A DNA stretch of 27,651 bases from Nitrospirota bacterium (GTDB taxonomy: Bacteria; JACPQY01). The position numbers were made by a program, and so were the translations under genes. The notes beneath the pieces were generated by a model. It was not told where the DNA came from, did no database searches, and worked only from the letters and a program-made list of their open reading frames with translations. Position 1 is the stretch's first letter; the number at the start of each line of letters is the position of its first letter. This document shows, in pieces, positions 4,079 through 10,439 of the stretch. The stretch is taken from the NCBI GenBank assembly GCA_016190245.1, contig JACPQY010000077.1, positions 1 to 27,651 on the forward strand, in the 5' to 3' direction.

Positions 4079-5986
4079 TTGCCGCTCTCGTGTGTCGGTC
4101 CTCAAGTCCAACCTCTGGAGCGGATGTTCTCCCTCGCATTTGCTCTCGCCCTCCTGACCTCGTGTGACGAGATCATGGGTGTCCCGCCGCAAGACGAGGT
4201 CATGCCCCGCGCGCCGTCGGCTTTCAGCCGTGCCGCCTACGACCTGAACACGCTCACGCTGGAGTGGCGGGACGACTCGACCGTGGAGGACGGATATGTC
4301 CTCGATGTGTCTACAGAGCCGGCGACCAACAACTACGCACCGCCGGTCATCCTCCCCAAGGACTCATCGCGCTACTCCTGGGATGATCCTCCCGGCGGCC
4401 AATACCGGCTTTGTGCCTTCAACGGGATCCTCCGCTCCGAGTGCTTGTTCGCATGTCTGCACTATCAGGACGAGGACAAGGACGGGTTCGGAGTGGATGT
4501 CAGGCTCACCGAAGGCCCTTGCCCCGAGGGCGATGGCCTCGTCCTGAAGCCGGGGGACTGTGACGATGGCGATGCGAGGCGTTTCCCGGGGAACAAGGAG
4601 GCGTGCGAGGGGATTGACAACGACTGCGACGGGGCGGTGGATGAAGATTTCCCGGGCCTTGGGACCGCGTGCCCTTTCGGCACGGGTACCTGCGCCCGTA
4701 CGGGCGTGAAGGTGTGCGGGCCCGACGCGACCGGAAGCAGGTGCGAGGCAGCTCTGTCCCCGCCTGGCCCCTGCGCGGTGGGCGTCGGCGAGTGCGCCCG
4801 CACGGGTTTGGCCGTGTGCTCGCCAGAGGGGATTCAGATCTGGTGCGATGCGATGGCCGGCGCACCCACGCCTGAGACCTGCGATCTCAAGGACAACGAC
4901 TGCGACGGGGAAGTGGACGAATCGAAGGTCTGCGGGCTCCCCGTTGTTGCAAGGCTGCCCTCGGCGCGAGATGGCCTTTCCTGCGCGGAGGTGGGCGGGA
5001 GGATCTACTGTTTTGGCGGATGCTGTTTCGGATGGCACTACATATCGGCGGTTGTTGAGTTTGACCCTGCGACATACGATGTGGACACCATGTCCGCCAA
5101 AATGCCGTCCGGGCGTGACTTGTCCTCCTGCGCGGCCTCGAAAGGGAAGATCTACTGCCTTGGAGGGCTCCGTAGGGATGAGATCATCGAGTTCGATCCG
5201 CCTGCGGATTCCGTGTCCGTCATGTCGGCCAAGCTTCCCTCTCCGAGGGGTAACTTCTCGTGCGTGCCTGCTGGTGGCATGATCTACTGTTTGGGAGGCG
5301 AGGGTAACGGGGAAGTCCTCGAGCAGATCACCGAGTTCGATCCGGATGCGAATACCGTAGTCAGCGAGGTGGCCAGACTGCCGGTACGCCGATTCGCGGC
5401 GTCGTGTGCTCCCGCAATAGGCAAGATCTATTGCTTCGGGGGTACGACCAACGGGTTCGACCCTCTCGATCAGATCGTGGAGTTCGATCCTCTTGTGAAT
5501 TCAGTGGCCGTCAGGTCGGCGAACTTGCCGACGCCACAGCTTGGGCTAGCCTGTGCCGTGGCAGATGGAAGAATCTTCTGCTTTGGGGGCCTTGGCAAGG
5601 GGGGTGAGAGTGACCGCATCGTGGTCTATGACCCTGTGGCAGATAGGGTGGAGCTGAAGACTCGGCGGTTGCCCTCGGCACGGGATCGCTTCTCCTGCGT
5701 AGGAGTGAACGGCAGGATCTACTGCTTCGGGGGTTCGCACGGCTACACACTGCTCGACGAGGTGGTTGAATACGATCCGCGTGAGCCTGCCCTCGTTTCC
5801 AACAGGGGCGCGGCCACTCCCGGCCCATCGGCAGCGATTGGTTCTGCCCGCGAAGGGGCGGACGACGCTGCCAGCAGCCCCTTCGACAGCCTTGGCTTCG
5901 GGTGTTCGGCAGTTCCTCCCGGGTCAGATCCAGCCGCAAGACAACGGGGCCGCTTTCCGAACCCGCATGACCACGGCCGAGATTGA
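4079..5986 (+). CDS. Exported lipoprotein: FnIII + MopE motif + six Kelch blades
   Basis: Predicted surface lipoprotein of 635 residues. The segment MFSLAFALALLTSC ends in an L-T-S-C lipobox with the cysteine near residue 29. A FnIII-like domain follows (about 45-130). Next comes a MopE-type metal-binding region rich in CDDGD, EGIDNDCDGAVDED and LKDNDCDGEVDES (about 135-285). Six Kelch-like blades (about 290-570) each read roughly S-C-x5-7-G-[KRM]-I-[YF]-C-[FL]-G-G. The tail is Ala/Pro-rich and low in complexity. TTG at 4079 has a purine-rich site (GGGAAGGGG) 8 bases before it. ATG at 4124 is the alternative but gives a signal without positive charge. Binding of calcium or copper and of a ligand by the propeller is inferred from the families. 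No operon partner is evident; the next gene is convergent. Confidence 0.8.
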   Translation: MPLSCVGPQVQPLERMFSLAFALALLTSCDEIMGVPPQDEVMPRAPSAFSRAAYDLNTLTLEWRDDSTVEDGYVLDVSTEPATNNYAPPVILPKDSSRYSWDDPPGGQYRLCAFNGILRSECLFACLHYQDEDKDGFGVDVRLTEGPCPEGDGLVLKPGDCDDGDARRFPGNKEACEGIDNDCDGAVDEDFPGLGTACPFGTGTCARTGVKVCGPDATGSRCEAALSPPGPCAVGVGECARTGLAVCSPEGIQIWCDAMAGAPTPETCDLKDNDCDGEVDESKVCGLPVVARLPSARDGLSCAEVGGRIYCFGGCCFGWHYISAVVEFDPATYDVDTMSAKMPSGRDLSSCAASKGKIYCLGGLRRDEIIEFDPPADSVSVMSAKLPSPRGNFSCVPAGGMIYCLGGEGNGEVLEQITEFDPDANTVVSEVARLPVRRFAASCAPAIGKIYCFGGTTNGFDPLDQIVEFDPLVNSVAVRSANLPTPQLGLACAVADGRIFCFGGLGKGGESDRIVVYDPVADRVELKTRRLPSARDRFSCVGVNGRIYCFGGSHGYTLLDEVVEYDPREPALVSNRGAATPGPSAAIGSAREGADDAASSPFDSLGFGCSAVPPGSDPAARQRGRFPNPHDHGRD

Positions 5987-6034: not shown

Positions 6035-9000
6035 TCAGTGTTCGCTGGCGGCGCAGCCCCAGCCGGCGGGGTCGGCACTCGATCGGGGCGAGTCGATCCG
6101 GAATCGCCGTTCGATCGTGCGGCGGTGGCCGGCGGCGTCCTCGGCCTCGATTTCGAGGGTGTGCTCCGTGTCTGGTGAGAGGCCGGAGAGGTCTAGCGTC
6201 ACCTTTTCTGGGAAGGCGACCGGGTCGGCGTCATCCAAGCGGTAATGCGAGGCCTGGGAGGGCTGGGGACCGCCCGCGTCACTGATGTAGATCGAAACGG
6301 ACAACCCTCGCGCGACGAATCCGGCAGGATCTTCATCAAGGCCCCGCACGCGGATGGCGGGCGGAACGCTGTCCACCACGAAACGGAGCCTGGCGGGCGA
6401 GGGGTCGCGGCGGCCCCCGGCGTCCACGGCGGCCACTTCAAGAACATGGCTCCCCTCAAGCAGGAAGGGCAGGCGGATGGTGGGGCCGGAGGAAGTTCGC
6501 CAGAAGCCGCGGTCCACGCGGTAGTGGTAGCCCGCCGCGTCGGAGCCCACGCCTTCCACCTCGATGCGGGAGCCGGACGGGACGAATCCGGCAAGGACGC
6601 TCTTTTGGGCGTCGAGGTCGAGGGCATAGGAAGCTTGACCGGTGAGGGGGTCGACGAGAAACGTGTCAGGCCCCCCCACCGGTGTTTGGGCTGTGGTATT
6701 TCGCCTGGGCGCGGAGGCGAGGCGGTCGCGCAGGGCATCGAGCTCCGATGCGAGACAGGGGTTTCGGCTGCTCCCCTGGAGGCGATCGAGGATCATGTCC
6801 AGGTCCATCCCGCCTGAGTCGAAGCGACCCGCGCACGTCAGATAGTCCCCGCGCCCGTTCCCATCGAGATCAGGGGCGTATCGGTTCGGCCCGAAAAAGA
6901 CGCTTTCGATACCGAAGCCCGGGAGTCGGAGCGGCAGCTCCATCCAGAAGTCGAGGAGCCCTCCCGCGAGCGCGAGGAACACGTCGGGCACCGCCTCCGC
7001 GAGCTGCGCCTGATCCAGACGGTAGCAGTCGGGGTCAGCGGGATCGAAGGACGGACAGTCGGTGTCCAGAGGATCGAAGTACAGGACTTCCTCCACTTGG
7101 AGATCGAGCGGGCCGAGCGCCAGCTTGAGGCACGGGCCGCCCGCCGAGGCGGCGTTGCAGTTGGACTCGAGGAAGGCCTCGGCGTCGGCGAACACGCGCG
7201 GGGTGGAGGGATCGGTGTCCCAGACGTCCTCGGCATCGAACTCAAGAGCGCCTTCGAGAGAGGTGACGAGCCCCAGGGCCTTCACCGGTGTCCCGCCCTG
7301 CTGCACCCAGACATCGGTATGGAAGCGGCGGAAACTGAAGACGACGTCGCGGTCGGCCGCCGTGACCGCCGAACAGCCTTTTTCCTGGAGCTCGGGGCCG
7401 GGCGCACCTCCAATCGAGAGACAGATCTCGGGCGTGGAGGGGTCGGCATCGCCGAAGGGCTGGAGCCTGAGTGACACGCTGGTGTCCGGGTCGGCGATGT
7501 CATCGAGCGGTGGCAGGAGGCCCGCGAACCGATCCACGCTCAGGAGGTCCGCCACCGCCGGCGGTAGGGCGACCGGTGGCTGCTTGGCCAATGACAGCCC
7601 CCGATCATCCAGTTCGATCGAGAAGAGGCCCGACTGGAGGAGTGTGTCGGCGCTCTGGGCGAGGACGTCCTGCGAGGTGGAGCAGGCGAACATCATGCCG
7701 TCGGGTGCGCCGTCACCATCGTAGTCGGGCTGGGCGCCCGGACGGGGCTGGCAGCTTCCGAGGGCCGGGCAGCACGGGGTGTTCGAGGGGGGATTTCCGC
7801 TGCACGTGCCGCATCCCGGCTGCCCGCAGCAGCACAGGCTCGCCTGGGCCGTGAGGCGGCCGGGCGTCATGTTGAGCTCGGGCTCGCGAACCTCGCAGGC
7901 GAAATCCGAGTGCATGGTCATTCTCTCGCCCGGCCCCGTGACGACCGTGAGGTGCGGGTACACGCCGACGTCCGTGAGGCCGCCCGTGGAGGGCGTGGTG
8001 CAGGCCATGAGGCCGTACTCGGTGGGCGGTGTCTTGCCGATCGCGGCGTCGTAGGCGGGAAGGCGGAGGTCCGGGAGACCGTCGGGTTTGCAGTCCGGAT
8101 CGGGCTTGCAGTCGCCGGGGCCGGAAGGCGGCGTGAGAGGGTTGCAGGCGGCACCTTCGGAGCACGTCGCTGTCTCGGGATCGTACGTGCAGCGATCGGC
8201 GCAATACCCGTAGTGGGGGCATTCGACATCGTCCTGAACCCCGTGGGCACACCAGTCGCCTCGGGCCGTTCCCGCGTAGGTGGGGCACGCGAAGGCCGGC
8301 TGGCTGCTGAAGAGGGCGTTCATGTCCATGGGGAAGGGGCCGGAGAGGGTGTTCCTCATCGTCGTGCCCAGCGCGTTGTCGAGCACCGGATTGAGGCTCG
8401 AGGCCACGCAGCCGTCCCACGAGACGTCCCGGTTGCAGATCGTCATGTCCCCCTGGGGATCCACAGTGACCTTGGGGATGTCGAGGGTGATGACGGCGTC
8501 GTCCGCGCGCGCATTGATGTTGTTCGCATCCACCTTGTTGGGATCGAGGACCATCGTGATGGGGAACGTGGCGAACTGGGGCTGGGCGTCGCAGTTCCCG
8601 CAGATGAAGAGGACGCCGGCGCGCACCTTCACCTCGAAGACGACGTCGTAGAGGACGACGTGGGCGTCCAGGTGCGCCTCGTCGGGGTGATCATTGTCCG
8701 GGTCCGAATCCTGGTCCGTGCCGTGGGCGTCCGGCAGCAGTTCGAGTGTGAGTTCGGGCGGGCAGGAGGTGGCGCCGGCCGCGCAGGCGTTCTGATCGAG
8801 GGTCGGGGACTTCGAGGGGTCCGTGGAGGGGTCGGACGTCGAGTCGAAGTAGAGAAAATGACGATCGGCGTTCAGATCGTAGGCACAGGCCCATTCCACA
8901 TTGGCCCAGCCGCACGTTCCTTCGAGGAGAGAGGCTGTCACCTCTCCAGCCGGCGCCCCGGGGCAGGGTCCGCCGTCCACGAGGGACTCCTCGATCAGGT

Positions 9001-9223
9001 CGCGAAAATCCTCGTCCAGGAGCGATTCTTCGAGTTGCTCGGCGATCAGGTCGAGAGCGGTGCGGCGGACCTCCAAGACCCAGCCGTCCTTGATGATGGA
9101 GGTGGCGGCGAAGGGGACCGACTTGGAAGGTACAGAGATGGCGGACTTGGGGTGATAGCCTACCGACATGGCCAAGATCGAGGCGATCATGAGAAAGAAC
9201 GGATATCTAGAGTACCTAATCAT
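6035..9223 (-). CDS. Large exported Cys/Asp-rich protein, function unknown
   Basis: A 1062-residue protein I cannot assign to a family as a whole. The N-terminus (SRYPFFLMIASILAMSVGYH) looks like a Sec signal. The body is acidic and rich in cysteine, with Cys clusters around 395-430 and 480-520 (CCCGQPGCGTC, NTPCCP). It has Asp/Gly calcium-loop-like stretches such as DYDGDGAPDG and PDLDGNGRGDY. The last ~220 residues look like two Ig-like domains: one ends at VDSVPPAIRVRG, the next runs from there to the C-terminus. There is no transmembrane anchor, and it ends GWGCAASEH. It converges on the Kelch gene with a 48-base gap. The start has no clear Shine-Dalgarno site; ATG at 9190 is an alternative. 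The upstream DNA is AT-rich. It is probably extracellular or periplasmic. Confidence 0.75.
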   Translation of the reverse strand: MIRYSRYPFFLMIASILAMSVGYHPKSAISVPSKSVPFAATSIIKDGWVLEVRRTALDLIAEQLEESLLDEDFRDLIEESLVDGGPCPGAPAGEVTASLLEGTCGWANVEWACAYDLNADRHFLYFDSTSDPSTDPSKSPTLDQNACAAGATSCPPELTLELLPDAHGTDQDSDPDNDHPDEAHLDAHVVLYDVVFEVKVRAGVLFICGNCDAQPQFATFPITMVLDPNKVDANNINARADDAVITLDIPKVTVDPQGDMTICNRDVSWDGCVASSLNPVLDNALGTTMRNTLSGPFPMDMNALFSSQPAFACPTYAGTARGDWCAHGVQDDVECPHYGYCADRCTYDPETATCSEGAACNPLTPPSGPGDCKPDPDCKPDGLPDLRLPAYDAAIGKTPPTEYGLMACTTPSTGGLTDVGVYPHLTVVTGPGERMTMHSDFACEVREPELNMTPGRLTAQASLCCCGQPGCGTCSGNPPSNTPCCPALGSCQPRPGAQPDYDGDGAPDGMMFACSTSQDVLAQSADTLLQSGLFSIELDDRGLSLAKQPPVALPPAVADLLSVDRFAGLLPPLDDIADPDTSVSLRLQPFGDADPSTPEICLSIGGAPGPELQEKGCSAVTAADRDVVFSFRRFHTDVWVQQGGTPVKALGLVTSLEGALEFDAEDVWDTDPSTPRVFADAEAFLESNCNAASAGGPCLKLALGPLDLQVEEVLYFDPLDTDCPSFDPADPDCYRLDQAQLAEAVPDVFLALAGGLLDFWMELPLRLPGFGIESVFFGPNRYAPDLDGNGRGDYLTCAGRFDSGGMDLDMILDRLQGSSRNPCLASELDALRDRLASAPRRNTTAQTPVGGPDTFLVDPLTGQASYALDLDAQKSVLAGFVPSGSRIEVEGVGSDAAGYHYRVDRGFWRTSSGPTIRLPFLLEGSHVLEVAAVDAGGRRDPSPARLRFVVDSVPPAIRVRGLDEDPAGFVARGLSVSIYISDAGGPQPSQASHYRLDDADPVAFPEKVTLDLSGLSPDTEHTLEIEAEDAAGHRRTIERRFRIDSPRSSADPAGWGCAASEH

Positions 9224-9605
9224 ACGATATATACAATTGCATCACGCAGCAATTATTACTATCAATATGTTAGTCAAGACTGACGATTCATTGTCGTAAT
9301 GATAGGAAAAGCACATTAATTGTCAAGTGAATTCAGTGATGTATTGATATACACGTGAATACATAGTAATAGATAGCCATACATTGGTAATATAAGTTAT
9401 CATTGAAACGGATGCCATACGTCGTTACCACCATGAGGCTCCCCATGCCGGCCCAGGCACGGCCGCCGGGCTAAAGTCCCCCAGCATCCCTGCCGATATA
9501 ATCTTCGAGTTCGGTGCACGATCAGGGGGAGTGGCGACCTAGTCGGCCGAATGGAATCAGTTGGAGTAGGTTGTCAAGGATACTTCTCTACAGGAGGTAA
9601 AACTC
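9224..9605. promoter_or_regulatory. AT-rich divergent control region
   Basis: This 382-base gap separates two divergent genes and holds no convincing ORF. About the first 200 bases (9224-9420) are strikingly A/T-rich against the GC-rich surroundings. They contain a palindrome AGTC-AA-GACT at about 9272-9281. On the minus strand, TTGACT and TAATTG spaced by 16 bases could form a promoter for the 1062-residue protein. The right half returns to high GC. It ends with GATACT at 9579-9584 and an excellent ribosome-binding site AGGAGG (9592-9597) 9 bases before the ATG at 9606. The promoter boxes are tentative. Confidence 0.4.
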
Positions 9606-10211
9606 ATGAGTGACATGACAGTTTCTTCCGCCCCCAGATTCAACCCGCGCGACCTGATTGACCGTTTCAAAGAAAATGAGGCGCGTCGAGTGGATCGCTT
9701 TCGCGACAACGAGGCGAACCGGGTTGATCGATTCGAAGAGAAGGAGCGGGACCGGGTGGACCGCTTCGTGAACAACGAGCGCGACCGGGTGACGCGATTC
9801 CAGGACAGCCAGCAAAACCAGATCGACACCTTCAAGTCGGTCGAGCAGCGGCGGCTGGAGGAGTTCCTGGCCAACGGCGGCACGGTTGAAGAGTTCAGGG
9901 CGCAAGAAGCCGACCGCGTGGATCGGTTCCAGGAACACCACGGCGACCGCGCGGATCGGTTCGCCGACCATGAGCGCGAGCGCGTCGACCGCGCTGCCGA
10001 CCATGAGCACGATCGGGTGGACCGGTTCGAAGACCACGAGCAGGACCGGGTTGACCGGTTCCGTGACCACGAGGGCGATCGCGTGGATCGCTTCGTGAAC
10101 TGGCTTAAGGACCACCAGCGCGATCCGCGGCTCCTCGGGCCACCGGAGCAGGGAGGGGACGGCACAACCGACCCGACCGCCCAAGCCGTCACGCTGAGCG
10201 TGATCGCCTGA
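9606..10211 (+). CDS. 11-residue-repeat helical protein, function unknown
   Basis: A 201-residue, highly charged protein without signal peptide, cysteine or membrane segment. From about residue 16 to 165 it is built of roughly 13 copies of an 11-residue unit with consensus D-R-V-D-R-F-x-D-H-E-x. One imperfect joint (EEFLANGGTVEEF) falls near residue 85. Val at position 3 and Phe at position 6 recur, and the remainder is Arg/Asp/Glu/His. Eleven residues make three helical turns, so a long amphipathic helix or right-handed (hendecad) coiled coil is expected. Known 11-mer proteins (LEA group 3, apolipoproteins, synuclein) use different consensus sequences. The tail after 170 is Pro/Gly-rich. The strong AGGAGG site makes it certain that this is a gene. 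A repeat pair and a terminator follow. Confidence 0.85.
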   Translation: MSDMTVSSAPRFNPRDLIDRFKENEARRVDRFRDNEANRVDRFEEKERDRVDRFVNNERDRVTRFQDSQQNQIDTFKSVEQRRLEEFLANGGTVEEFRAQEADRVDRFQEHHGDRADRFADHERERVDRAADHEHDRVDRFEDHEQDRVDRFRDHEGDRVDRFVNWLKDHQRDPRLLGPPEQGGDGTTDPTAQAVTLSVIA

Positions 10212-10222
10212 AGTAGCCCGCG

Positions 10223-10318
10223 CCCCGTGCGTGGTGCTGAACATCGTTCGGCACTGCATACGGGGCCGCGCCCCGTGCATGGTGCCGAATAGCATTCGGC
10301 ACGTCATACGGGGCCGCG
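10223..10318. repeat. Two tandem 48-bp nested-hairpin repeats
   Basis: Units 10223-10270 and 10271-10318 are head to tail. Each has an outer stem CCCCGT/ACGGGG (10223-10228 with 10260-10265, and 10271-10276 with 10308-10313). Each also has a 9-bp inner stem: 10234-10242 with 10246-10254, and 10282-10290 with 10294-10302, around 3-base loops. Differences inside the inner stem keep pairing: C-G becomes T-A, and T-G becomes C-G. This suggests that structure is under constraint. The units lie just after the stop of the 11-residue-repeat gene and could be REP-like elements or a 3' mRNA structure. Confidence 0.7.
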
Positions 10319-10354: not shown

Positions 10355-10390
10355 GGCCCGCCCGACCGCCCAACGTCCGGCGGGCCTTTT
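10355..10390 (+). terminator. Rho-independent terminator
   Basis: GGCCCGCC at 10355-10362 pairs perfectly with GGCGGGCC at 10379-10386 and is followed directly by TTTT and a pyrimidine-rich run. It should end transcription of the 11-residue-repeat gene before the ABC transporter operon. An upstream stem (10329-10335 with 10347-10353) uses nearly the same sequence, so alternative pairings are possible. Confidence 0.6.
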
Positions 10391-10439
10391 CGTTTCTTCT
10401 TCGGCTGACCCCGCGCCCGTTTTCTGGTAGAGGAAGGCT

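Follow-up and report, generated by a model that had tools for sequence, protein, structure and literature searches.

An orphan gene of a Nitrospirota bacterium encodes a hendecad-repeat protein predicted to fold as a helical hairpin

What kind of protein is made almost entirely of one 11-residue unit, and is the reading frame that spells it a gene at all? Both questions are raised by a frame on contig JACPQY010000077.1 of a Nitrospirota bacterium, the 27,651 nucleotides of which we call the window. Read directly and confirmed by repeat and codon analysis, the frame (9606-10211, plus strand) starts with ATG and encodes 201 amino acids plus a stop. The strong ribosome-binding site of the original prediction is there, a Shine-Dalgarno sequence (AGGAGGT, 9592-9598, plus strand) that can be read directly 7 bases 5' of the ATG. 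So is the AT-rich upstream region: positions 9200-9399, between divergent genes, have a G+C content of 31.5% and are a probable promoter region, with only weak sigma-70-like matches on the plus strand. A riboswitch upstream of the gene was considered and dropped, as Rfam gave no match. On the 3' side, one terminator-like stem-loop with a T-rich tail was found (10366-10393, plus strand), a count within the chance expectation of 0.8.

The 11-residue repeat itself is borne out by a periodicity far beyond that of shuffled sequences. At a lag of 11 residues, 66 of 148 positions are identical, whereas shuffling these residues 100,000 times gave at most 34, and the identity is 0.44, 0.39 and 0.33 at lags of 11, 22 and 33 but 0.02-0.17 at lags off the 11-residue period. 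The units number 14 and occupy residues 16-168, seven in each of two arms split by a LANGGT turn, with the consensus D-R-V-D-R-F-x-D-[HN]-E-x. Twelve are clear, and the remaining two, RRLEEFLANGG and GTVEEFRAQEA, lie beside the turn. The earlier estimate of about 13 units came close to this count. The register slips by one residue exactly at the LANGGT break. Phe, Arg, Asp and His abound in the unit, Ala and Lys are scarce, and His at unit position 9 is confined to the second arm.

A 33-bp tandem DNA repeat can by chance hold frames open on both strands, and long antisense ORFs do run over the same stretch. The repeat copies were compared as codons, and in the coding frame they differ at a proportion of 0.67 of synonymous sites (pS) and 0.37 of nonsynonymous sites (pN), a ratio of 0.56; in the other five frames the ratio is 0.66 to 1.39, and three of these frames have stops in several units. 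A non-coding substitution pattern would have spoken against a gene; the pattern found favours the sense frame, where the ratio is lowest. Synonymous sites are near saturation, which indicates that the repeats are old and that the protein sequence has been kept. The G+C content by codon position (0.75, 0.38 and 0.79) resembles that of neighbouring genes, as does the codon use, and the strong Shine-Dalgarno sequence likewise argues for the sense frame. The antisense ORF (211 residues), folded as a control, modelled very poorly, with a mean pLDDT of 42.2 and a pTM of 0.21 compared with 83.9 and 0.63 for the sense product. The codon pattern largely refutes a chance frame, which we regard as extremely improbable, and the ORF is very likely a real gene under selection at the protein level.

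A hendecad is a stretch of 11 residues in three helical turns, or 98 degrees per residue. The hydrophobic moment of both arms is highest at 98-99 degrees per residue and AlphaFold2 predicts long helices, in agreement with the hendecad helical protein first proposed. From the one sequence, with no homologues in the input, the predicted model has a mean pLDDT of 83.9 and a pTM of 0.63, with most helix residues above 90. Predicted helix 1 covers residues 14-89 (9645-9872, plus strand), with units 1-7 starting at residue 16, and predicted helix 2 covers residues 94-172 (9885-10121, plus strand), with units 8-14 and their His at position 9. The turn, N-G-G-T, is predicted at residues 90-93 (9873-9884, plus strand), where the 11-residue register slips. 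A C-terminal tail rich in Gly, Pro and Thr (residues 173-201; 10122-10208, plus strand) has low confidence after about residue 175, with a pLDDT below 60. The single very long amphipathic helix that had also been suggested is replaced in this prediction by two helices, of about 76 and 79 residues, that form a hairpin. The sequence shows neither a signal peptide nor a membrane segment.

The register in which the two arms may pair can be read from several sums of residue numbers. Across the hairpin, the pairs of Val (or Ile, Leu, Ala) with Phe (or Ala) all sum to 181, and for the predicted helix ends the sum is 183. Near the turn three registers score best, 178, 181 and 184, and a score of hydrophobicity and charge does not separate them. 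A sum of 184 belongs to the pairs that join Arg (position 2, arm 1) to Glu (position 10, arm 2), and five of the seven are R-E. In the other two pairs (L17-L167 and Q72-H112) both partners depart together, a coincidence with a chance of 1/21 that was noticed after the fact. As both arms have a period of 11, a register match modulo 11 is partly automatic, so that the hairpin is informed only by the phase (about 3 of 11 possibilities) and by the two coincident departures, which are supportive but not proof. The helical wheel runs Phe-Glu-Val, two variable positions, three acidic positions and then Arg-His-Arg. In hendecad terms Val at a and Phe at d are hydrophobic, e is variable and h is mostly Glu; the seam may be weak because only two of the four core positions are hydrophobic.

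From these features we infer a cytosolic, highly charged protein folded as a single antiparallel helical hairpin with a length of about 11 nm (75 residues at 1.5 Å each). Its role would be structural, that of a rigid rod or scaffold, and not enzymatic, and we give this reading about an even chance. Seven hendecads would run outward, the N-G-G-T turn would reverse the chain and seven hendecads would return. Val at position 3 and Phe at position 6 would form the narrow seam that closes the hairpin, while Glu at position 10, between them on the wheel, would pair across the hairpin with the Arg at position 2. On its outside the rod would bear an unbroken acidic stripe (positions 1, 4 and 8) and, next to it, a basic/His stripe (positions 5, 9 and 2), and through these stripes the rods would probably associate side by side. 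A soluble structural rod is our best guess at the role; the filament, spacer or stress protein of the original prediction was likewise a guess. A bolder version, which we hold to be improbable, makes the protein the founder of a new family of helical-hairpin rods that assemble themselves, zipping via matched acidic and basic/His stripes into a cytosolic filament or sheet that only this sparsely sampled phylum would have, under His-dependent control by pH or metal.

Relatives were sought widely. Searches with the protein sequence found nothing significant in Pfam, NCBIfam, PHROGs or PDB sequences, where the best match, ATP synthase subunit d (E 0.95), is not above chance. Structural libraries returned generic hairpins only, with a best Foldseek E of 0.27; for VIA the best Z was 10.3 at an rmsd of 7.7 over 158 residues, and many unrelated hairpins score alike. 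By tblastn there was no match in phages (50,697 records) or plasmids, a profile search of 386 genomes recovered only the window itself, and the only other genome of the phylum among these (G001) had no match to the gene at E 10. A profile of permuted repeat units, with artificial rows, found none in viral and genome contigs. Homologues of varying repeat number had been named as a check on the original prediction; family libraries, PDB sequences, phages, plasmids and the 386 genomes yielded none. A DNA pattern of two consecutive units matched at six loci among 84,980 species genomes, a strict search that would miss diverged relatives, and the collections searched may omit the window's genome or near ones; only two of the six look like real 11-residue repeat proteins, both from Rhodothermales. 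PARCEL elements were rejected as a parallel, since their units are 25 residues long (PMC2996958), a period different from 11.

One viral sequence from IMG/VR (L002) bears on a possible phage origin, in which part of the protein would have been borrowed from phage tail proteins; short IDRFKENE-type segments are present at the N-terminus of a tail-spike-like phage protein. At the start of this protein L002 has IDRFKENESRIDKFVNQEG, with a two-unit stretch in common with the hendecad protein (IDRFKENESRIDKF), and the L002 segment is also matched by a Janthinobacterium phage protein whose gene lies two genes past the one for the tape measure. The likeness spans about two units with a register gap, however, and composition bias can explain it; moreover, the window protein is unmatched in the 50,697 phage records and the window is without phage genes. 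Borrowing from phages is, in our judgement, very unlikely.

The neighbourhood gives no hint of function. The gene appears to stand alone. Upstream, across the AT-rich gap, is a divergent gene for a large, probably secreted protein (6035-9223, minus strand), and downstream is an ABC-2 exporter pair; the pair is also present in G001, with the ABC transporter ATPase at 72% identity, but there the hendecad gene is missing in front of it. Other genes of the window encode parts of an ABC importer of the branched-chain-amino-acid type, two acyl-CoA ligases, a DctP-type binding protein, an HTH-cupin regulator and RNase III. The large protein encoded upstream belongs to no Pfam family; both this genome and G001 have several paralogues of it. 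A Kelch-repeat gene contains a duplicated segment with a MopE-type metal-binding motif (4598-4645 and 4874-4921).

The 3' hairpins had been counted as part of the hendecad gene, and this does not hold: they are two copies (10218-10265 and 10266-10313) of a palindromic element, about 50 bp in size and dispersed, which is found at about ten more places in the genome (L031-L040) and is independent of the hendecad protein. Its 19-pair stem is kept in eleven copies, with six pairs changed on both sides in a compensatory manner. No match to the element was found in G001 at E 0.01. Some copies lie within genes. In a CobA-HemD fusion (L036, 114-1727) the element, at about 1501-1561, is in frame within the HemD part and adds 17 residues, and exactly these residues are absent from the relative in G001, a clean empty-site comparison. 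Further in-frame copies lie in an MtaB-like methylthiotransferase, between its UPF0004 and Radical_SAM domains (L035, 545-2296, minus strand), and, close to the beginning of the protein, in a 49-kDa complex I/hydrogenase-like subunit (L034, 123-1694, minus strand). Copies within protein genes use different reading frames of the element. Another copy is an insertion in the RNase P RNA gene (L027, 1410-1832; RF00010, E 1.5e-16, below the gathering score). Such in-gene copies recall the Rickettsia palindromic elements (PMC10969869).

Two families of 11-residue repeat proteins offer other explanations of the hendecad protein. The first is that of group 3 LEA (LEA_4) proteins, which likewise have 11-residue repeats, charge stripes and a very hydrophilic, highly charged sequence. 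By this analogy the gene, apparently a separate transcription unit, would encode a desiccation or stress protein that is disordered or half folded when wet and helical when dry. The unit is nevertheless unlike the Ala/Lys-rich LEA_4 motif TAQAAKEKAXE (PMC7215670), and the predicted order is of high confidence, whereas LEA_4 proteins are mostly predicted to be disordered. The original view that the unit differs from the LEA and apolipoprotein 11-mers agrees with Pfam, in which neither family gave a match (E 1 or below), and we think a LEA-like role improbable.

A lipid- or polymer-surface coat is somewhat less improbable, though still unlikely. Here the hairpin would open on a hydrophobic surface into 3-11 amphipathic helices like those of perilipin-4, synuclein and apolipoproteins, and the charged stripes would join neighbouring helices. 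The 11/3 period and asymmetric charge stripes fit the description of perilipin-4 (PMC6164224), so that period and segregated charges are common to these helices and to the hendecad protein, and the two acyl-CoA ligase genes of the window are a loose hint of lipid metabolism. These genes are not in an operon with the hendecad gene, however, and the apolar face is a narrow stripe in which Val and Phe, just two of every eleven residues, are separated by a Glu. The hairpin is ordered in the AlphaFold2 model, and the Apolipoprotein, perilipin and phasin Pfam models are unmatched.

If the hairpin of the structural-rod reading is true, it would be an unusually regular natural hendecad hairpin, with two hydrophobic residues per eleven and a Glu-Arg seam pair, and it would be useful for coiled-coil rules and for protein design. 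The protein, an orphan whose repeat copies are old and diverged and whose phylum is sparsely sampled, also represents a type that family libraries have missed.

Other close parallels lie in unit or shape. Two paralogous proteins of one Rhodothermales MAG (L023 and L025), with unequal numbers of ESAERFGKIKT-type repeats and a shared LTITLPDFVRYEVR segment, have 11-residue units with [AV][DE]RF at the same place. They differ in their own N-terminal segment, their C-terminal hydrophobic (membrane) segment and a composition rich in Ala, Thr, Lys and Met, and their Pfam matches, such as KMP11 and Apolipoprotein, are sub-threshold only; we take them as an analogy rather than as homologues. The antiparallel hairpins of YscO, SMC arms, PI3K p85 iSH2 and Vipp1 are alike in overall shape, a common arrangement only, and the hendecad protein has no Pfam match to the YscO/FliJ and Vipp1/PspA families. 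Hendecad coiled coils, such as the rotary ATPase peripheral-stalk subunits, have the same 11/3 repeat, hydrophobic a and d positions and a long rod. Between their packed helices there is a slight right-handed supercoil. They are defined by residues of hydrophobic character at a, d, e and h (PMC6131620); here a and d agree with this, while e is polar or variable and h is mostly Glu. The rod is predicted to be a single chain folded into an antiparallel hairpin, where theirs is a two-chain stalk. The hendecad helical repeat is of an already known type; what is new is the lack of a family, the unit itself, the Glu-containing seam and the predicted symmetric 7+7 hairpin.
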